Made by a program: the position numbers and the translations under genes. The notes under the pieces were generated by a model. It made no database searches. It saw nothing but the letters and a program-made list of their open reading frames with translations, and was not told the DNA's origin. DNA of 23,266 nucleotides. Origin: a virus. Positions 13,123 through 23,266 of this stretch are shown piece by piece; position 1 is the stretch's first letter, and each line of letters begins with the position of its first letter. The stretch spans positions 1 through 23,266 of the IMG/VR virus record IMGVR_UViG_3300049181_000110; one strand, written 5' to 3'.

Positions 13123-15525
13123 TTACTTCTCACCTGAGGTTTTATTACTAAGTTTTATCTTTTCTATCTTTTCCTTGGCTGCAATCTCCTTCTCTTTAAG
13201 GGCTCTGTCCTTATCATTTTCGTTTCTCTCATGATCCATCTCTCTTTGTCTAAAGGTAGATTCCTGATTGAGCTTCTGTTGTTCAAGAAACACCTTACCT
13301 TGTTCAACTGCTTCCAAGGCTCCCGAGTCTGCGGTATCAGTATCGAACCCAATAGTTTTGATAATAGCTTCTTCAAGTCTGGCATCTCTATCTTTTTGGT
13401 TTTCTTCTCTCTCAAACTGTCTATCAAGCTCTCTTTCCTCAGCCTGAGCTTGTAACTGCATCTGTGCAGTTTGTTTTTGCATTTCAACTTGTTGTTGATC
13501 TCTCTGATGTTTAGCAGCTTCAGACTGTCTTATCAACCCACTCAATTCAGAGATTGAGTTAGACTTATACATAGTGATTACGTCTGAGAAACTAACTGCT
13601 CCCGAAGATAAAGCTTTTTCAGCAAGACTTTCAAGTTTCTTGAAGATCATTGTATCGTTGCTTGAATCAGATACGAATACTCCATAGTCTGAATCAGCAA
13701 ACTTTTCCATATCAAGTTCTGTAGATATCCTCTGGACATCATCAACTATGAAGTGGAGTTTCTTTTTATTGGGGAATGCAAACTTAGAAGTCTCTATAAC
13801 CTGGGTATACACTACCTTCTTAATCTCGTTGTGAATATAGAACCATGGCTCGGTTATATGTGAACTTTGAGTAACAGATCTCTCAACACCGCTTGCAGTC
13901 TCTGTAGCTGAAGTAGCGCCCTCTCTCTGAGGAGTAATACCCACTACTTTATCCATAAGCTGTTCAATCTTACCAAGAATATTGATGTACTGACCAACAG
14001 CCTGAGACAAACTCATATCCACAGCATTAAACTGATTGAACTTGCTGGTAGCATCCTGGTTCTTACCTTTACCTTCTTCAAAAGAGTTGATAAAAGCTAT
14101 ACCAACGTTGTCGAATAACTGAATCCACTTATCCAGATCTATACCCTCAGACTTAGGAATCTGAGCAATATCCATGATAAACTTCTTACCCTTAGCTTTA
14201 GCAAGCTCAAGTTCAAGACGATACCAAACTATATTGTATAAGTATTGATGAGGTTTAAGTAAATCAACTAAACTTGTTTGAGCTGAGTTGGTAGAGTTAT
14301 AGATCCTACCAATATAAGGCAGTTTAACCTCACTTGGATTATCCATAGATCTGGTTTGATTGGGCATCGGTTCTATAGGACCATAAAATCCATCACCGAT
14401 CTTAGTACCTCTCCACAGATATGGTATCCATCTCCATTCAACTTTAACTCCATAGGCTTCCATCTCAGGAGTCAATTCAAAGGTTTCGTCTACTATATTG
14501 CTTTGTTCTTCTCCGTTCTCATCCGGGAATGTAACAAAACCTATCTGATGCATTGATTTCCATACACAGTGCGATACCAGATAATGAGAACCACTCATAC
14601 GAGATGTTCCTTCATAGTGTGATATATCACTTTGAGTATAAGCAAACCCCGGCATCATACCATTGATGTTTGGTCTGGCTATACCTTCATCAAGTTCTTT
14701 AACCTGCGCCTCTGTAAGATACTCGCCAAACTCATCAAGAATCTGGCCGGCCGTCATCCATCTGTCTTCCCTAAACCAATCTCCGTCTTGAATCCAAGGG
14801 TTATCCGGATTCCTATCAAACTCACAGTTAAGAGGATTACATACTCTAATTTTCACATCTCCATTGACTATACCAACGTAGTATATCTCTTCAGCTGCAA
14901 TCAAAGCATGTTCCCAACCTTCATTAAACTTTAGTTTGAGATTCTCCTTGTGTTTTATGTAAGTGAGGATATCATTACCCCACTGTTCCCTTATATCCTT
15001 GTAATTATACTGGGCCCACTTGTCTACTTCTGGGAAATCCTGAGGAACTTCTCCTCCTGTAGGAGCTTCAAGTTCTGCCGGATCTATACCAATAGCTTTA
15101 GCAAACTGAACCTGAGCAACATAAAGAAGCATATCCTTCTTCATCTTTTCCTTGTTAGATACAGCCTCACCATTAGTAGCTATAACCTGAGCTTCAAACT
15201 TCCTATTAATCTCTTCACCTTTGAGTAAGTTTAGCTTGTTAACTATCAGGTTGATGTCTCTCATCCTGGCCGGCTGACTGGCTTTATCTTTTAGACCCCA
15301 CGGATCAGTTACATAGGAAGTATCTTCTTCATCAAAAATAGAGTTAACTAAGTTATAGTTAGTCTGTTTACGCTTCCAGCTTGATCTTCCATCAGACATA
15401 CGAGATCCGCTCATGGAGCATATAGCATCCACAGATTGTTCCCTCCATTGTTTTCCTTTCTTTTTTAAAGAAAGCTTCTGAGGAGGAAGAGATGTAAAAA
15501 GATGTGAACTATAAAAGTCTGACAT
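13123..15525 (-). CDS. Portal protein
   Basis: An 800-residue protein forming the dodecameric DNA entry channel. It begins one base into the stop of the terminase gene (overlap of 1 base, TAATG-type junction), as portals often follow TerL. The central region (RMRDINLIVNKLNLLKGEEI near 87-106, and GITPQREGATSATETASGVE near 527-547) resembles portal proteins of the crAss-like/P22-type class, where the latter segment precedes a conserved S-rich patch (QSSHITEPW). From about residue 670 to the end lies a long Gln/Glu/Arg coiled coil (HQRDQQQVEMQKQTAQMQ and beyond), matching the barrel-like C-terminal helices of long portals. Length is within the range of crAss-like portals. Small frames inside this coil on the same strand are composition shadows. 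Confidence 0.85.
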   Translation of the reverse strand: MSDFYSSHLFTSLPPQKLSLKKKGKQWREQSVDAICSMSGSRMSDGRSSWKRKQTNYNLVNSIFDEEDTSYVTDPWGLKDKASQPARMRDINLIVNKLNLLKGEEINRKFEAQVIATNGEAVSNKEKMKKDMLLYVAQVQFAKAIGIDPAELEAPTGGEVPQDFPEVDKWAQYNYKDIREQWGNDILTYIKHKENLKLKFNEGWEHALIAAEEIYYVGIVNGDVKIRVCNPLNCEFDRNPDNPWIQDGDWFREDRWMTAGQILDEFGEYLTEAQVKELDEGIARPNINGMMPGFAYTQSDISHYEGTSRMSGSHYLVSHCVWKSMHQIGFVTFPDENGEEQSNIVDETFELTPEMEAYGVKVEWRWIPYLWRGTKIGDGFYGPIEPMPNQTRSMDNPSEVKLPYIGRIYNSTNSAQTSLVDLLKPHQYLYNIVWYRLELELAKAKGKKFIMDIAQIPKSEGIDLDKWIQLFDNVGIAFINSFEEGKGKNQDATSKFNQFNAVDMSLSQAVGQYINILGKIEQLMDKVVGITPQREGATSATETASGVERSVTQSSHITEPWFYIHNEIKKVVYTQVIETSKFAFPNKKKLHFIVDDVQRISTELDMEKFADSDYGVFVSDSSNDTMIFKKLESLAEKALSSGAVSFSDVITMYKSNSISELSGLIRQSEAAKHQRDQQQVEMQKQTAQMQLQAQAEERELDRQFEREENQKDRDARLEEAIIKTIGFDTDTADSGALEAVEQGKVFLEQQKLNQESTFRQREMDHERNENDKDRALKEKEIAAKEKIEKIKLSNKTSGEK

Positions 15526-17795
15526 TATCTAAAGATTTTTCCACTTAAGGCTCTTTGTAAGAATGGATCCATTCCTTTATCTGCTACAGCTTCTTCTACT
15601 TTGTGATTTAAGAACTGAAGTCTGTTTAAGATAGTAAGCATGAAAGCTATCACCCGGTCAAAGTTACCTTCTTTGTTGTAGTATATAAGCTCCTTTAATA
15701 AAGGCACACTGTAGATCTTATGCAAGTTTAATCTACCATCTCCTGTCTCAGTCTGTAACCAATCTCGGGTATATATCTCTAACTCTGATTTGATAGTGTC
15801 AGTCATATGTATACCATAAGATCTATCTACAGTACTTCCTTTCGTAGCCTTAAGTATAGTTGGAGTCTTATTAAGCAAATATAGAGAGTTTTTGTGAGAA
15901 AAATGCATCTTCAAAGTATTTCTCTCGTTCTCATAAAGATCCCTGGCATTATAGTATAACAATAACTTACGAAGAGTTTCATGGTGCTCTTCTGCAGTTC
16001 CAGGTCTGGCTGTATACTCTGCAACCGGCCATTCATAGATTCCATCTGCCGTGTAAAAAGTCTTATAGATAAAAGTAGATCCTAAAGAAGCTGTATTCTC
16101 AGCTCTATCCTGATCATAAGGGTCAGTGCCGGCAAGGTAAAGTCCATAAGGAACCTGACCTTCTATCTTTAGAGGATGCTCCCATATCTGAATACATCCC
16201 TGAGTATCTTCTCCCGGCTTCATCTTATAACCACAAGGATTTAACTTACCGGTTAAATCAGGCTTCCAGTATAAATCCAAAGTAGATCCCGGCTTCCATA
16301 CAAGCTCTCCACATTGACCAGATACAAAAGCATCTTGTTTGTTGGAAAGCAACCAGTTCATATGATCTTTAAGCTCTGCTGTAGGAAAGATGTTAGCTCC
16401 TTTAATAAGGAAAGCTTCAGAAGGAACCCGGGGGTTATTCTGCATCTCCTTGTATAGCTTCAACTTAGACTTACCGGCTTGCAGATCATTTCTTATCTTA
16501 TCTACCTTTTTGGTAGCTTGAGTCATATTAGTTCTACCTTCGCTATCCTTGAACTCATTTAAACCAAGTTCATAAGGTACAAAGAATCCTATATCTCCTG
16601 TATCTTCCCATACATCCTGAAACACAAGACAATCATATTCTTTAGGGCTGTTAAATACTTCCATAGCAGCCTCAGATTTTCCACCTTCCATGTTACCACC
16701 AGTACCAAACATGTAGATAGAACCATACTTAAAGGAACCGTTATAGGTTGTATCTTTCATCTGAGCTAAAGCTTCTTTAAGAATATTAAAGAAACCAACC
16801 TCTTCAATCACACCTAGAGAAGTTCTTATACCGTTACCGGCTTCTGCATCATCTTTAAAAGTTCTATGATGTATCTTAGATCCGGTACCTTTCTTAACCC
16901 ATTGTCCTCCAACCTTAACTTCATAAGCACTTTCGATATGATTCTTTCCTGAATACCAAGAACCCATCCATTGCTTAGCAAGAGGACAAGGATAGGTAAG
17001 CTTTCCTATAGTTTGGGATCCAGGAAGATTATTCATAGCAAGAGCAACCTTATCTAGTAACTCCTTACTATACTTACCATCTATAGCTCCTACTAAAACG
17101 TCAGTAGTAACTTCTATCTTATTCTTACGCTTTTGAAGTAGATCTTCGTAGTCGTATCCTCCATCAAACAAGAAGGTAGGAAGAACCATACCACCACTCG
17201 CCCAGTACGATTTACCAGACCCCCGACACTCTATGTCTATAACATTGTAGGCAGGATTATGGAAAAGAGGTTTACCAAGATTAACTGAATGAATAGTTCT
17301 AAGATAATCTCTGGCCCGAACATACTTCTTAAGTTGACCTTTTTTATCAAATGCTTGAGCCGGCAGGGTTGATAATAAGAAAGTTCTATCCTCTGGACTA
17401 AGAAGATTCAGGTTCTGTACTTCTTGTAGACAAGTATATTCATCATCTCCTTCGAATCCTGAGAACCCCCGGGCCTCCATAAACACATAAGCTTTCTCCC
17501 ATTCAAGATCTCTGAGGAAAGGACGAGCAACTATCTTAGCTTTAGCCCTATCATTTTCACTCAATCTTATCTTACAGAAGTTAATATAGAAGTATAAAGG
17601 TCCCGGCATCCATTTACCCTCGAACCAATATCCTTCCATACATCTCTTCTTCATCTCTCTCCAGTACTCACGATAAGCAACTGACTGAGGATGATAGACT
17701 TCAAGATCATGTACAAAGTTCTTATTACTTACCCACTTACTATGTTTACCTTCGTCCTTATAATCCTTCTCGTTGTTTCTTGGATCTATTCGCAT
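15525..17795 (-). CDS. terL: Terminase large subunit, ATPase plus nuclease (TerL)
   Basis: A 756-residue DNA packaging motor protein. The ATPase half shows a Walker A (ECRGSGKS, residues 189-196) and a Walker B with the catalytic glutamate (LGVIEE, 327-332), followed by a coupling-type segment (YMFGTGG, 361-367). The C-terminal RNase H-like nuclease shows its first acidic residue in YLAGTDPYD (Asp558), and a final Asp in NFDRVIAFML (Asp713) at the expected spacing. An intermediate acidic residue is likely in the ENERN segment (622-626). All expected catalytic residues are present, so the enzyme should be active. The start at 17795 overlaps the preceding small HU-like gene by 38 bases; the upstream sequence AAGAGAAT is only weakly Shine-Dalgarno-like, as is usual in Bacteroidetes. 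Confidence 0.93.
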   Translation of the reverse strand: MRIDPRNNEKDYKDEGKHSKWVSNKNFVHDLEVYHPQSVAYREYWREMKKRCMEGYWFEGKWMPGPLYFYINFCKIRLSENDRAKAKIVARPFLRDLEWEKAYVFMEARGFSGFEGDDEYTCLQEVQNLNLLSPEDRTFLLSTLPAQAFDKKGQLKKYVRARDYLRTIHSVNLGKPLFHNPAYNVIDIECRGSGKSYWASGGMVLPTFLFDGGYDYEDLLQKRKNKIEVTTDVLVGAIDGKYSKELLDKVALAMNNLPGSQTIGKLTYPCPLAKQWMGSWYSGKNHIESAYEVKVGGQWVKKGTGSKIHHRTFKDDAEAGNGIRTSLGVIEEVGFFNILKEALAQMKDTTYNGSFKYGSIYMFGTGGNMEGGKSEAAMEVFNSPKEYDCLVFQDVWEDTGDIGFFVPYELGLNEFKDSEGRTNMTQATKKVDKIRNDLQAGKSKLKLYKEMQNNPRVPSEAFLIKGANIFPTAELKDHMNWLLSNKQDAFVSGQCGELVWKPGSTLDLYWKPDLTGKLNPCGYKMKPGEDTQGCIQIWEHPLKIEGQVPYGLYLAGTDPYDQDRAENTASLGSTFIYKTFYTADGIYEWPVAEYTARPGTAEEHHETLRKLLLYYNARDLYENERNTLKMHFSHKNSLYLLNKTPTILKATKGSTVDRSYGIHMTDTIKSELEIYTRDWLQTETGDGRLNLHKIYSVPLLKELIYYNKEGNFDRVIAFMLTILNRLQFLNHKVEEAVADKGMDPFLQRALSGKIFR

Positions 17796-18933: not shown

Positions 18934-19180
18934 ACTCTCTGATCTTTTTACTTAAGTTTAGATACCTTGTTGCCCACGCCCTGGCTTTATCAAGCTGCTT
19001 TATTTCTTCTTCCGGAGTAGTAGTCACTTTAAGCTTTGGTCTTCTCTTGTTATGAAAGGCCATTTCCTTCTTATAAAACTTCAATCTCTTTCTTCTTTCA
19101 GCTCTGTTGAACCCTTCTGCTTTATCGATTGTTAAGCTGGTATCTTCTGTAAACTTATCTTGCTCATGCATATACATCAA
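18803..19180 (-). CDS. Basic-to-acidic helical protein of unknown function, 3' end overlapping the zinc-ribbon gene
   Basis: A 125-residue protein. Residues 23-48 (EGFNRAERRKRLKFYKKE and following) are a strongly basic helix with the NRAERR motif seen in small phage proteins. The middle is mixed and the C-terminus (from about 88) is acidic (KRMEEFDFSQNG, then ADLEGSLGDMQDLL). Four possible ATGs lie at 19180, 19177, 19174 and 19171; the last overlaps the stop of the upstream winged-helix gene least and is an equally plausible start. Its final 43 codons are read in a second frame by the downstream Cys-rich gene. I find no enzymatic motif. Confidence 0.6.
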   Translation of the reverse strand: MMYMHEQDKFTEDTSLTIDKAEGFNRAERRKRLKFYKKEMAFHNKRRPKLKVTTTPEEEIKQLDKARAWATRYLNLSKKIREYETLKEYNKRMEEFDFSQNGSQEREADLEGSLGDMQDLLIPGE

Positions 19181-19520
19181 ATTTAAAGGTTAACTCTTTT
19201 CTTGGTATAAGTCTTGGATCTATAAACATCCCTTCAGGACTTTCCCGAAGAACTTTTTTCTCTATAAGTTGTGTTCTATAATTGAACATCCCTTGATTAG
19301 ATAAGCTAAGTTTAGCTTTAATCTCAGACATAGTCTCTTTAGAGAATAATATTTTGTTGAGATAAGGTTGCTTAAGTCCTGCTTCTTCCATAGAAAGATA
19401 CCTATCAAGAAGCTCTTTAAGAAACTCTATCTCCTTATCTGTCAGCCTTAAACCTCCGTTCCAGATGTTTATGTAGGCTATAATGAATTGGTCTTTATTG
19501 ACCCTTGCCTTTAACTCCAT
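19164..19520 (-). CDS. Winged-helix DNA-binding protein, RepL-like distant relative
   Basis: A 118-residue protein with a winged-helix look. Helices occupy about 27-43 (TDKEIEFLKELLDRYLS) and 60-90 (SKETMSEIKAKLSLSNQGMF is the turn-plus-recognition region), and residues 95-105 (SPEGMFIDPRLIP) form a wing. The order resembles that of the 149-residue RepL-like protein at 20363-20812: Lys/Glu helix, L-S/G-[IL]-x-x-Q, then L...G, and [IN]-[DN]-P. They could be paralogues. Such proteins bind DNA; a role as regulator of late genes or of phage-plasmid maintenance is possible. It overlaps the small gene at 19511-19672 by 10 bases. Confidence 0.6.
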   Translation of the reverse strand: MELKARVNKDQFIIAYINIWNGGLRLTDKEIEFLKELLDRYLSMEEAGLKQPYLNKILFSKETMSEIKAKLSLSNQGMFNYRTQLIEKKVLRESPEGMFIDPRLIPRKELTFKFDVYA

Positions 19521-19672: not shown

Positions 19673-20376
19673 AGATTACCATCCCAATTACCTTTACTAT
19701 CGAGGAACATAGGAATCAAGCGAGGTCTACCGTTGATCACTATCCCTGTCCCTAATATAGGTCTATTTGGGTTAATTTTGTTATACTCGAAGGCTAATTC
19801 TTCATTATCTATCAAGCAACCTACGTTCATCCCCCATATTAAACCTCCTGGAGAATTATAGTAACCTATCCTGAAGTCTTCATGAAAGTGACCTTGTACA
19901 ACATTGCAACCAAGGGATCTGGCATAAACTTCTGAATTCTTTTTCGATCCATGACAAACGAAAATATCTTTTCCAACGTTCTGCTTTAAGATGAGGCTGG
20001 TGTGCCACTTCCATTTTTCACCATCAACTCCAAGAATCTCATGGTATGGCTTCAACACATGTCTTGGCATACCTGATGTTTTAGCCCTTCTATATACCAT
20101 AGAGCCATGATTGGAGTGAAGGAGGTCCATAACAGGGAACAGTTCTTCCAGCTGTTTTATTGTGGCACATCCCCTTATCAACTCTATTCCTGCAGAGTCA
20201 AGATCAGGATCGCTGTCATGATAACTAAGAGCATGATAGTCAAGTTCATCTCCGACACAGACGATTCGGTCTGGTTTGAATTCCCTCTTGATCTCTGAAA
20301 GGAAAGCAATAGTATCTTTATGATGGTAAGGAGCGTGAGTATCACTAATAAAGAGGATACGATCATTTTGTTTCAT
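19669..20376 (-). CDS. Calcineurin-like metallophosphoesterase
   Basis: A 235-residue enzyme of the metallophosphoesterase superfamily, hydrolysing a phosphoester using two metal ions. The full motif set is visible: D-x-H in ISDTHAP (Asp12, His14), GDxxD in VGDELD (42-46), an NH pair in SNHGS (89-90), a CHG segment (His142) and GHxH in QGHFHED (His163, His165). Usually the third motif is GNHD/E; here it is SNHG, so the substrate may differ from typical nucleases. Such genes are found in many phages for nucleotide or nucleic-acid processing, but the specific substrate cannot be told. It overlaps the RepL-like gene by 14 bases and the next small gene by 4 (ATGA). Confidence 0.85.
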   Translation of the reverse strand: MKQNDRILFISDTHAPYHHKDTIAFLSEIKREFKPDRIVCVGDELDYHALSYHDSDPDLDSAGIELIRGCATIKQLEELFPVMDLLHSNHGSMVYRRAKTSGMPRHVLKPYHEILGVDGEKWKWHTSLILKQNVGKDIFVCHGSKKNSEVYARSLGCNVVQGHFHEDFRIGYYNSPGGLIWGMNVGCLIDNEELAFEYNKINPNRPILGTGIVINGRPRLIPMFLDSKGNWDGNL

Positions 20377-20812
20377 CTATCTTATACTTAAATAACAAGT
20401 CTATACGCTTTTCTCTTAGAAGTTTGTTACGCTCATCTGTAGTCCCCTTCCAAAAATGCTGAGGATTTATTATATACTCTCCTCTATCTCCGCTCAATAA
20501 TCCTGCAGTCTTCAGTCTGTTGATAGAATTAGAAAAGCTTTGAGGTTTAATTCCAAGCTTATCTATGATCTCCTTCCTATCTTTAGGAGTTAACGCAACC
20601 CTACCGGTATTAAATACAGCTTTGGTGCATAATATTGAAAGAACTTTTATATCACTAGGTCTGGCCAACTCGCACACAGCATTCATACCTGATAAAAAAG
20701 TTATATAAAACTCCTCAGAATTCTTAGAAGATACCGTAAAAGTCTTCTCTATAGTAGTAACCTCCCCTGTTCCGGTGTTAACCGTCTCTGTAATTCTGGT
20801 GAGTTTCTTCAT
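20363..20812 (-). CDS. RepL-like winged-helix replication/DNA-binding protein
   Basis: A 149-residue protein with a helical N-terminal half and a winged helix in residues 77-121. The recognition part (KEIIDKLGIKPQSFSNSINR) is followed by LKTAGLLSGDRGEYIINPQH, which matches the C-terminal pattern of RepL-family plasmid/phage replication initiators: L...G-L-L...G-x-Y-x-[IV]-N-P and then a Lys-Gly. Crassvirales are known to carry RepL-like genes. If functional, it could start episomal DNA replication, which would bear on the carrier or pseudolysogenic state described for this group. It could instead be a transcription regulator. It precedes the phosphoesterase with a 14-base overlap and sits 16 bases after the preceding gene. 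Confidence 0.65.
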   Translation of the reverse strand: MKKLTRITETVNTGTGEVTTIEKTFTVSSKNSEEFYITFLSGMNAVCELARPSDIKVLSILCTKAVFNTGRVALTPKDRKEIIDKLGIKPQSFSNSINRLKTAGLLSGDRGEYIINPQHFWKGTTDERNKLLREKRIDLLFKYKIDETK

Positions 20813-20828
20813 TTTATTCTATAGTGTA

Positions 20829-21068
20829 TCAGGTTCTTAATTTTAACTCACCTTCTGTAACTTCTCTTTCGACAAGATCTTCACAGGCTACTACGTACTT
20901 TATATGGTTGTTATTCTCTACAATAAACCCAACAACCATTCCTGACTGTCCTCCAACCTTGAAAACAACCACATCTCCATAACAGAAGGCTAAAGGAATC
21001 TCTACTATCTGCCGGATTAATCTTGTACCAACATCCAGTCGGTTCTTTTCCGAAACTTTTTTAGCCAT
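20829..21068 (-). CDS. Small SH3/KOW-like beta protein, unknown function
   Basis: A 79-residue protein. After a basic N-terminus (MAKKVSEKNRLDVG) the sequence alternates beta strands and Gly turns: YGDVVVFKVGGQSGMVVGF (about 30-48), then IKYVVACEDL, and ends with TEGELKLRT. This resembles a compact SH3-like barrel such as KOW modules, which bind nucleic acids or proteins, but the resemblance is only to the general pattern. Its start overlaps the Tad2-like gene by 52 bases in another frame. No alternative ATG lies nearby, so the overlap may be real. Confidence 0.5.
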   Translation of the reverse strand: MAKKVSEKNRLDVGTRLIRQIVEIPLAFCYGDVVVFKVGGQSGMVVGFIVENNNHIKYVVACEDLVEREVTEGELKLRT

Positions 21069-21202
21069 GGTGTATCAAGTATTTGTCCATCTTTAGTCAT
21101 AACCAGGATTTCTCCATCCTGAACGAACCAGTAACCACCCCACTCCGGGAGTCTTACTTTCCTCCCCTCGTTTAGGGCGTTCATGGCTTCGTTAAAGTTC
21201 AT
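21017..21202 (-). CDS. Tad2/DUF2829-like small protein, candidate Thoeris anti-defence
   Basis: A 61-residue protein. The start MNFNEAMNALNEGRKVRLPE, then WGGYWF (residues 21-26) and the end TPWLKKFRKRTDWMLVQD match the DUF2829 pattern: M-x-F-x-E-A-x-x-A-L-x-x-G-x-x-V-x-R-x-x-W at the N-terminus, and a Trp followed by D-W-x-x-V at the C-terminus. Tad2, a DUF2829 protein, blocks the Thoeris system by sequestering the cyclic ADP-ribose-type signal. The protein here is shorter than SPO1 Tad2, which I recall at roughly 90 residues, so the middle loop is reduced and the ligand pocket may differ. It lies one base after the preceding gene's stop. Anti-defence activity is an inference from the family. 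Confidence 0.6.
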   Translation of the reverse strand: MNFNEAMNALNEGRKVRLPEWGGYWFVQDGEILVMTKDGQILDTPWLKKFRKRTDWMLVQD

Positions 21203-21900: not shown

Positions 21901-22015
21901 CGTATCCGGTTAAAGTTGCCACTGGAAGCCAGGTTTCGTGGAGATAAATCTCTATACCTCCACGTTTAACTCTGAACTTTTGGAAATCTAAGTAAAATAT
22001 TATCTCCTTAGTCAT
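21893..22015 (-). CDS. Hidden 40-residue protein, unknown function
   Basis: A frame of 40 codons plus TAA. It begins MTKEIIFYLDFQKFRVKRGG and ends TLTGYDA. The ATG overlaps the end of the GroES-like gene by 8 bases and its stop overlaps the next gene start by 8 bases. That packing and the lack of any other content here support it as real. It is beta-like with aromatic residues. A hairpin (21937-21964) lies within it. Function is unknown. Confidence 0.55.
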   Translation of the reverse strand: MTKEIIFYLDFQKFRVKRGGIEIYLHETWLPVATLTGYDA

Positions 22016-22307
22016 CTAATTTACAAAGAATATCTGATTCCCGGATAATGAAGAACTCTTCTTTACCTTCGATCTTAAGATCTTGTAGATTTCCTCTGTG
22101 GGAGATCAATACTTTGTCACCAAGGCTGGTAAAATCAGAGGTCTGATTACCTTTGGCTGCTATAATTACCGGTTTTCCCTGTTGAATATGCTGAATAACC
22201 AAGTTAGACTTAGTTTGTGCATTGAGGATAATATCCTCAGGGAAGATATTATTGGGTACTGCTACCACAATATATGAAGCATATGGGATTATTCCTATTC
22301 CACTCAT
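22008..22307 (-). CDS. GroES-like co-chaperonin
   Basis: A 99-residue protein, about the length of GroES. The C-terminal half gives the clearest match: GDKVLIS (63-69) corresponds to the GroES GDxV(I/L)F strand and FFIIRESDILCKL (85-97) to its V-L-I-M-x-E-S-D-I-L-A. In the mobile-loop position, PEDIILNAQ (23-31) carries Ile-Ile-Leu at 26-28, comparable to the Ile-Val-Leu tripeptide that GroES uses to bind GroEL. The dome-loop region appears reduced. T4 gp31 does the same job for the T4 capsid protein, so the likely role here is to help host GroEL fold the major capsid protein. No GroEL is in the window. It is the second gene after the promoter, two bases from the upstream stop. Confidence 0.78.
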   Translation of the reverse strand: MSGIGIIPYASYIVVAVPNNIFPEDIILNAQTKSNLVIQHIQQGKPVIIAAKGNQTSDFTSLGDKVLISHRGNLQDLKIEGKEEFFIIRESDILCKLDD

Positions 22308-22309
22308 AA

Positions 22310-22798
22310 TCAGTTAGTTTTCTTCTTTTTAGGTTTGTCTTCTTGGGTTTTAACTACTTCAGTGGTGCCAGTAGTATCTTCAGTTGTAGCTGCAGGATCG
22401 ATTCCAACTACATAGGTAACTGCACCTGTATTAAAGATGTCTCCTTCTTTAACTTCTACCGGAATCGAAGGATTACCTACAGGTTCAAACTTAAGTCCTT
22501 CCGGGGTATATTCAGCTACTATATTAGCTTCAATAGGCTTAATGTTCTCTAATCCTGCTACTTCAAGATTAAAATCATCTTCTACAGAGTTAGATAGAGG
22601 CTTAATATCTTCTATAGACTCTCCGGGGATAACGGCTCCATCTATATCTTTGAGTTTTACAACCACTGTAGCTTTACCGGCATAGTTAGATATGCCTATA
22701 ATCTCAAACTCTTTCTCTGAATTTTCCACTACAATAGTGACTTCATCTTGTGGGGTTCCCTGTTTATTCAACTGGGAGATAATATTTCCTTTATTCAT
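22310..22798 (-). CDS. First gene of the late operon, acidic protein of unknown function
   Basis: A 162-residue acidic protein with a basic end. The N-terminus (MNKGNIISQLNKQGTPQDEV) followed by alternating beta residues to about 50 looks like a small compact domain seen in unrelated phage proteins. A beta-rich middle (about 75-130) follows, then a Thr/Glu-rich linker (PAATTEDTTGTTEVVKTQED) and KPKKKKTN. The ATG is at 22798, with AAAGGA 6 bases upstream as a ribosome-binding site (22810-22805). It is the only gene in this operon with such a site plus a promoter-like sequence nearby. I do not recognise a family; a virion-associated or DNA-mimic role is conceivable but unsupported. Confidence 0.6.
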   Translation of the reverse strand: MNKGNIISQLNKQGTPQDEVTIVVENSEKEFEIIGISNYAGKATVVVKLKDIDGAVIPGESIEDIKPLSNSVEDDFNLEVAGLENIKPIEANIVAEYTPEGLKFEPVGNPSIPVEVKEGDIFNTGAVTYVVGIDPAATTEDTTGTTEVVKTQEDKPKKKKTN

Positions 22799-22836: not shown

Positions 22837-22867
22837 CAAAGATACACTAAAAAGTGTAAAAAGTAAA
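22837..22867 (-). promoter_or_regulatory. Promoter candidate for the leftward operon, TAnnTTTG box
   Basis: On the minus strand TATCTTTG (22844-22837) is an exact match to the Bacteroides -7 consensus TAnnTTTG. About 17 bases upstream is TTTACT (22867-22862), a loose match to the -33 element. Transcription would start a few bases downstream, giving a leader of roughly 30 bases. A palindrome (ACACT-AAAA-AGTGT, 22844-22857) touches the -7 box and could be an operator. Confidence 0.6.
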
Positions 22868-22882
22868 TTTTGAAAGTGTAAA
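22851..22882. repeat. Two direct copies of AAAGTGTAAA, 22 bp apart
   Basis: The plus strand has the same 10-mer at 22851-22860 and 22873-22882, start-to-start distance 22 bp, which is two helical turns. They lie over and just upstream of the promoter candidate, so they may bind a regulator on one face of the DNA. Confidence 0.6.
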
Positions 22883-22885
22883 GAT

Positions 22886-22946
22886 ATACTCGGTGTGTAA
22901 TAGAGATATACTCACACCGAGTATAACATATACTCACACCGAGTAT
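22886..22946. repeat. Operator-like cluster of three repeats, ATACTC-ACACC-GAGTAT
   Basis: Two exact 19-base direct copies of ATATACTCACACCGAGTAT lie at 22906-22924 and 22928-22946, 22 bp apart. Each contains a 6-base inverted repeat (ATACTC/GAGTAT) around ACACC. A third, opposite-facing copy (ATACTCGGTGTG, 22886-22897) is the reverse complement of CACACCGAGTAT. This looks like a binding array for a dimeric repressor or activator just upstream of the late promoter. Confidence 0.7.
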
Positions 22947-23200
22947 GTCGAAAACGCTGTAACCCTTGGTATCATTGAGAAACTTCAATCTTGCTCTTCT
23001 TATCTGATCTAGGGATATATAACTATATAATCTTATAAAAGAGTTTTATGGTTTACTATAGTTTTCCTCTGGACTTCTGAGGTTGAGGATCAGTTTCCAT
23101 AGCAGCTATAGTATCAATGGTAGACTAAGGATCACTATACCCCTCCGGGGAACTATACCCTCAACTTTTTGGTATTTCTCAGAAACTTAGGTTATCTATA
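22947..23200. other. Non-coding stretch between the operator array and the low-quality end
   Basis: About 250 bases with no convincing gene. It contains an AT-rich stretch (23016-23034), two imperfect copies of ggtat-N5-agaaactt (22968-22985 and 23171-23188, 13 of 18 matching), and a candidate gene remnant on the minus strand (23053-23160). Confidence 0.5.
23053..23160 (-). pseudogene. Possible C-terminal gene remnant interrupted by TAG
   Basis: The minus-strand frame reads GYSSPEGYSDP, then an in-frame TAG (23127-23125), then STIDTIAAMETDPQPQKSRG followed by KL and adjacent TAG-TAA (23058-23053). A TGA lies upstream at 23163-23161. The tail sequence has the look of a real protein C-terminus. 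With TAG read as glutamine the frame would be longer, but the upstream TGA and nearby low-quality sequence make this uncertain. Confidence 0.2.
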
Positions 23201-23266
23201 ACCCCCCCCCCCCCGGGGGTTTTTTTGTGTGGGTGGGGGTGGGGGGGGGCGCAGTGAAACCGCCCC
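23201..23266. other. Homopolymer tail, probable sequencing/assembly artefact
   Basis: The sequence ends with 13 C, 5 G and 7 T in succession, then long G runs. Such a composition is not seen anywhere else in the window and resembles poly-G read-end artefacts. Confidence 0.75.

Follow-up and report, generated by a model that had tools for sequence, protein, structure and literature searches.

The late operon and its leader

The DNA analyzed here (the window) comprised 23,266 nucleotides, positions 1 to 23,266 of the IMG/VR record IMGVR_UViG_3300049181_000110. It held the late operon of a crAss-like phage on the minus strand, and the array described below forms the leader of this operon. The TerL, portal and capsid genes stood in the Crassvirales order, TerL matched Crassvirales members, and the nearest named phages by TerL belonged to the Crassvirales (phi14:2, 34%). 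The operon began with a gene without known function, followed by genes for a GroES-like protein, a RepL-like winged-helix protein, a metallophosphoesterase, a second winged-helix protein, a HU/IHF-like protein (a weak match), TerL and further structural proteins. The GroES-like, winged-helix and TerL genes were syntenic with those of cr55_1. The genes discussed below are as follows.

22310-22798, minus strand: first gene of the late operon, 162 aa, no assigned function
22008-22307, minus strand: GroES-like co-chaperonin (weak matches, E 5e-4 and 3e-3)
20363-20812, minus strand: RepL-family winged-helix protein, 149 aa, proposed binder of the array
19164-19520, minus strand: second winged-helix protein, 118 aa, a distant RepL paralogue kept also in RepL-less Crassvirales
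15525-17795, minus strand: large terminase subunit (TerL), 34% to Cellulophaga phage phi14:2

Three minor features of the window and its relatives were also recorded. A 61-aa product (21017-21202, minus strand) resembled PF11195, the Tad2-like anti-Thoeris domain, with E 2e-4 and a score short of the curated cutoff. The end of the contig, 23202-23249, held C and G runs (CCCCCCCCCCCCCC...GGGGGTGGGGGGGG) that were unlike the remaining record and are possibly an assembly artefact. The terminase genes of two relatives, L003 (2900-6181) and L005 (8075-11527), carried intein-like insertions and encoded 1093 and 1150 aa, against about 756.

RepL is a known crAssphage gene with a presumed replication role (PMC7551546, PMC10136315). 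The 149-aa protein of the window matched PF05732 with 23.2 bits, just above the cutoff of 20.3, and 12 of 14 relatives matched this family too (best E 2.8e-9). In four relatives' records that have RepL, it was present once each. The 118-aa protein was also found in phages without the array. The predicted folds of the 149-aa and 118-aa proteins had mean pLDDT values of 74 and 94, respectively, and fold searches gave best Z scores of 7.8 and 8.2 to staphylococcal RepA initiators; CRP-type winged helices were also alike. These scores are at about the level of common arrangements and appear too ordinary to decide function. A sequence search of the PDB returned weak matches only. The "capsid protein" gene that occupies RepL's position in cr55_1 was considered as a candidate and proved not to be a RepL relative.

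Five sites in one register

The sequence-only reading of this DNA had placed a late control region at 22837-22946, with two separate pairs of repeats that share a 22-bp spacing. The elements it listed were all present: two copies of AAAGTGTAAA 22 bp apart (22851-22860 and 22873-22882), two exact 19-base direct repeats ATATACTCACACCGAGTAT, also 22 bp apart (22906-22924 and 22928-22946), an inverted third copy in the form of a 13-nt exact arm (22885-22897), a palindrome touching the -7 box (TACACT-n4-AGTGTA, 22843-22858) and an exact TAnnTTTG promoter on the minus strand. We located the following features in the leader.

22995-23003, minus (operon) strand: conserved upstream element ATAAGAAG(A/G)
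22930-22946, minus strand: site 1, 17-bp palindrome ATACTC-ggtgt-GAGTAT, type A; centre 22938; exact in the relative L025
22908-22924, minus strand: site 2, 17-bp palindrome identical to site 1; centre 22916, 22 bp from site 1
22886-22902, plus strand: site 3, inverted copy ATACTC-ggtgt-GTAATA with a single good half; centre 22894, 22 bp past site 2
22865-22880, minus strand: site 4, TACACT-ttca-AAATTT, type B, with a single good half; centre 22872.5, 28.5 bp upstream of the -7 box
22858-22865, minus strand: TACTTTTT, 21 bp upstream of the -7 box
22843-22858, minus strand: site 5, 16-bp palindrome TACACT-tttt-AGTGTA, type B; centre 22850.5; its final TA is the TA of the -7 box
22837-22844, minus strand: -7 box TATCTTTG of the Bacteroidota type TAnnTTTG, predicted promoter of the late operon, 38 bp before the start codon

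Each exact 19-mer contains the 17-bp palindrome of sites 1 and 2, and the proximal AAAGTGTAAA copy overlaps one half of site 5. When the centres of the sites are read instead of the edges of the repeats, all five fall in one register, with successive gaps of 22, 22, 21.5 and 22 bp. The array is a single ladder instead of two pairs. Three of its sites (1, 2 and 5) are complete palindromes, and sites 3 and 4 have one good half each. The half-sites of the two supposed pairs also look alike (TAC[AT]C), and a relative (L014, below) combines both half-site types within one palindrome. A division into two pairs for two regulators was not supported. The spacing of two helical turns, which would place the sites on one face of the DNA, was supported.

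The best lag in the leader was 22, with 28 of 40 identities, and this score was reached by none of 200 dinucleotide shuffles. The array was also the top-scoring tandem 6-5-6 palindrome of the whole window. The 19-mer did not occur again within three mismatches in the record, which is a 23-kb fragment, and neither the window nor the leader DNA matched any of 50,697 phage records.

Promoter elements

The exact TAnnTTTG box was also found in L005, L012, L015 and L017, and the -7 boxes of L013, L021 and L025 were one mismatch from the consensus. A -33 element TTTG was absent about 20 bp upstream of the -7 box in the window; TACTTTTT occupies that place. In L013, L015, L017 and L021, a sequence TACTTTT(A/T) again preceded the -7 box by 20-22 bp, and it is possible that this motif acts as a -33-like element. 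The upstream element ATAAGAAG(A/G), in the same strand as the operon, also preceded the array in L013, L014, L015, L017 (twice), L021, L025 and Dulem virus 41 (twice); no copy was seen in the L004, L005, L012 and L020 leaders. We also tried the upstream element TAGATNAGATAAGAAG as a route to new leaders. Of the contig stretches that it returned, at least 119 in number, most were unrelated and none supplied a new leader.

In L012 (6108), L017 (5105), L020 (1713) and L043 (1872), a -7 box stood about 4 bp before a start codon, suggesting that these mRNAs may be leaderless.

Conservation of the ladder in relatives

Relatives were collected from IMG/VR by TerL and portal profiles, and about 12 of them had the leader inside the contig. 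Their leaders carried the same kind of ladder. In L025, whose terminase is 56% identical to that of the window, the exact 17-bp palindrome and a second copy with one changed base stood 22 bp apart before the homologous operon, and the palindrome core was reversed relative to the window. The exact 17-mer occurred in only two stretches of IMG/VR, L025 and L029. L029 was rejected as a relative; its copy lay within the phage tail genes of an unrelated prophage, and this coding match looks like chance. A stricter pattern of two full palindromes at 22 bp matched nothing in IMG/VR, because the first copy in L025 has one changed base.

The other relatives differed in site sequence. L013 and L017 had sites of the type TATAAC-n5-GTTATA at 22-bp spacing, and L017 had one hybrid site, TTACTC-ggtgt-GTTATA. 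Three GTATCC sites at 21 bp were found in L015, four sites at 20-22 bp plus TACACTTGTAAGTGTA in L014, three TACACT sites ending in TACACTTCCAAGTGTA in L005, and TACAC boxes at 21-22 bp in L021. One palindrome of L014 contained both half-site types. L004, L012 and L020, which have a divergent RepL, showed weak versions of the array only, and the array was absent from the leaders of the RepL-less phages phi14:2, cr55_1 and cr118_1. The L005 contig came from a search with the TACACT pattern, which also returned five contigs of uncertain kinship, L006-L009 and L011. A lack of conservation in related genomes had been named as a result that would refute the proposal; the relatives keep both the sequence and the spacing of the repeats.

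A different tandem palindrome (TTGTACAAAACGTACAACTCG in L020) with 21-bp spacing was observed in another region of L012 (2677-2712) and L020 (1112-1147).

Period and phase

We surveyed 50 lags in 12 crAss-like leaders with RepL by a motif-free test. The peak was at lag 21 (z = 6.1), and lag 22 had z = 2.9. Seven other leaders had no signal at lag 22 and a weaker one at lag 21 (z 2.4), mainly from L023. The signal of L023 was ignored, the supposed leader having proved to be coding. As 21 is a multiple of three, stray coding sequence could raise lag 21 but not lag 22.

A leave-one-out dyad profile aligned on the -7 box had its main peak 28 bp upstream, followed by peaks at 7, about 50 and about 71 bp. 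The phase of the sites was locked to the -7 box when compared with circular shifts, with P = 0.0002 for seven genomes and P = 0.0012 for the four with an exact TAnnTTTG; the latter value is the safer one, since the matrix was built on half-sites picked visually among symmetric sites and the use of three inexact -7 boxes entails a choice. The proposal that this is a control region of the late operon was supported.

Arrays at RepL loci outside Crassvirales

Similar arrays, with a period of 21-22 bp, were found immediately upstream of RepL genes in unrelated replicons. In Sodalis phage phiSG1, TTACTC-n5-GAGTA sites at 22 bp lie directly before the RepL gene, with the same half-site, geometry and spacing as in the window. 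Nine identical palindromes at 22 bp precede the RepL gene directly in Erwinia phage LS-2018a (L206, 1208-1400). In a Helicobacter (H. cinaedi) plasmid, TACACC-n5-GGTATA occurs four times with 22-bp spacing. The repeats of a Campylobacter plasmid are AT-rich, palindromic and spaced at 21 bp, and an Aeromonas plasmid has three GTCACT-n5-AGTGAC sites; this last plasmid also carries repB, a possible owner of its array. Klebsiella phage KP13MC5-1 (L207, 949-1031) has four AAGTAC-n5-GTACTT sites. It is a T4-like Slopekvirus whose RepL gene is annotated as hypothetical, and its RepL gene and four-site array are perhaps an acquired replicon. Arrays were also present in Pseudoalteromonas phage HS5, a Priestia plasmid and Dulem virus 41. 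A clear 6-5-6 palindrome unit was seen in seven of the 12 arrays examined; it was not seen in HS5 nor, by the same measure, in the Campylobacter plasmid.

A best lag of 21 or 22 with at least 27 of 40 identities was found at 10 of 15 RepL loci, compared with 9 of 2863 control windows. The array was absent at the other five loci (Vibrio 1.148, Alteromonas R22Y, a C. helveticus plasmid, bajarodino virus 51 and a p-crAssphage relative), and the C. coli RepL plasmid pWestmill 11 has been reported without iterons (PMC11389370). Thus, the array is common at RepL loci and not universal. No repeat-array site for RepL proteins was found in the literature searched, which excluded subscription papers. 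The association of such arrays with RepL genes is the strongest evidence that the array may be read as belonging to RepL.

The array as a candidate origin

In the genome of the near-complete relative L025 (G001; 89.6 kb), the array stood at the GC-skew minimum and at the junction of divergent transcription, and the doubled site was the top tandem palindrome of that genome. The skew is not independent evidence, because its minimum coincides with the switch in gene direction. Iteron-like tandem repeats at a spacing of 20-23 bp near an initiator gene were present in the window (22 bp), though 2 kb from repL; in the other replicons, the array directly adjoins repL. Unlike iterons that all point the same way, the repeats differed in orientation: site 3 is inverted and the core is reversed in L025. 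This feature is less meaningful for sites that are palindromic. A DnaA-like box (TTATCCACA, at most one mismatch) was not found near seven arrays, and phage origins do not all have a DnaA box. Windows of 40 bp near the arrays reached about 80-90% AT, in genomes that are AT-rich anyway.

Such arrays occur beside RepL genes on plasmids and unrelated phages, and in L025 the array coincides with the skew minimum and the divergent junction; both observations make it a candidate origin and probably a RepL iteron locus. A RepL-family protein and the same arrays at unrelated RepL genes mean that a replication role should be weighed as seriously as promoter control. An initiator made from the late operon would act late, which counts against an origin role. 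In crAss001, replication and late transcription start in the same interval (PMC10136315). This fits a common switch but is no proof of one.

Interpretation of the array

We hold with moderate confidence that the array comprises five sites for RepL dimers that act on the late promoter, and that it is also a candidate origin. On the sequence evidence, it probably controls the late promoter. RepL, made from the same late operon by a gene 2 kb downstream of the array, would occupy successive sites as dimers, two turns apart on one DNA face and presumably with cooperativity. The array reaches into the late promoter and keeps a constant phase with the -7 box, so that late transcription should respond to the occupancy of the sites by RepL. 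Site 4 would be at the position of an activator (about -42, taking a start about 6 bp past the -7 box) and could activate at lower RepL levels. Site 5, which overlies the -7 box, would block the promoter at high RepL. The overlap of site 5 with the -7 box leads us to expect autoregulation with a repressing ceiling.

More tentatively, the two roles might form a combined switch. RepL on one ladder would start late-phase replication at the replichore junction and also set the transcription of the 60-kb late block, which would tie genome copying to virion production. The RepLs of phages and plasmids from several bacterial phyla would read a common class of 17-bp 6-5-6 palindromes with a strict period of 21-22 bp. 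We regard this as possible, with the balance somewhat against it.

The array might instead serve transcription only, as the operator ladder of a RepL-derived autoregulator of the late operon without a replication role. The phase-lock to the -7 box, the overlap of site 5 with that box and the position of the RepL gene within a late structural operon all suit this explanation, as does the report that crAss001 late genes switch on at 30-60 min (PMC8375218). Yet it leaves unaccounted for the same arrays beside RepL genes on small plasmids and the array at the skew minimum; the RepL family name and the fold likeness to RepA_N initiators (Z 7.8-8.2) also speak against it but are not decisive. We consider it rather unlikely.

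Two regulators had been proposed originally, with the two winged-helix proteins of the operon as candidates. In such a scheme, the ATACTC sites would be read by the RepL-type protein and the TACACT sites by the 118-aa protein. There are indeed two half-site types and two paralogous winged-helix proteins, and a winged-helix protein of the same operon is still the likely binder. Separate regulators are, however, quite improbable given that the five sites share one 22-bp register, that half-sites are mixed within single L014 palindromes and that phages without the array also keep the 118-aa protein. A site for packaging or other DNA handling (pac/TerS or partition), near the promoter by accident, has a very slight probability: the repeated sites share the operon with the terminase gene and a TerS-like ring could conceivably read them, but that gene is 5 kb away and the association tracks RepL, on plasmids as well. 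Chance repeats are refuted by conservation across genomes and by a lag-22 score that no shuffle reached, even though the leader is AT-rich and a single 6-n5-6 palindrome with two mismatches would be expected by chance.

The preferred reading, five RepL dimer sites that also form a candidate origin, bears on two questions. The replication start of crAss-like phages has been described as unknown (PMC10136315), and no regulator of crAss-like late promoters was named in the literature searched. For both questions, the array offers a 110-bp target and a named protein. The wider pattern would supply a rule for the sites that RepL proteins recognize, and with it a means of detecting their arrays in many phages and plasmids. 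CrAss-like phages count among the most abundant human gut viruses, which gives the control of their late genes general interest.

Comparison with known systems

Theta-plasmid Rep proteins often autoregulate as well as initiate. The iteron origins of these plasmids (22-bp tandem repeats upstream of repB, PMC3632715) resemble the array in having tandem sites at 21-22 bp upstream of the gene for a DNA-binding initiator. In contrast, the sites of the window are palindromic, in either orientation and in register with a promoter -7 box, its initiator-type gene comes only after 2 kb of a long structural operon, and the iteron function for RepL is putative.

Like the sites of the array, the O-protein iterons at the origin of lambda are palindromic, measure about 17-19 bp and follow one another at about two turns. 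They are read by a winged-helix protein, as is proposed for the array; unlike the array, they lie inside gene O. No relationship between RepL and O is established, and no unwinding element is defined in the window. The lytic replicon of P1 (RepL/oriL, PMC9948254) shares with the case described here an initiator named RepL (a likeness by name), an adjacent GC-skew switch and AT-rich DNA, whereas P1 oriL is placed inside repL and no iteron array is described there (PMC9948254). Operators of the CRP/FNR or MarR type are alike in being palindromes for winged-helix dimers, with sites at about -42 and -63, and the winged helix of CRP resembles that of RepL. They differ in that RepL has no sensor domain and the window has five sites in a continuous two-turn ladder. 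Among the arrays found here, the nine-site array of Erwinia phage LS-2018a makes a convenient test system.
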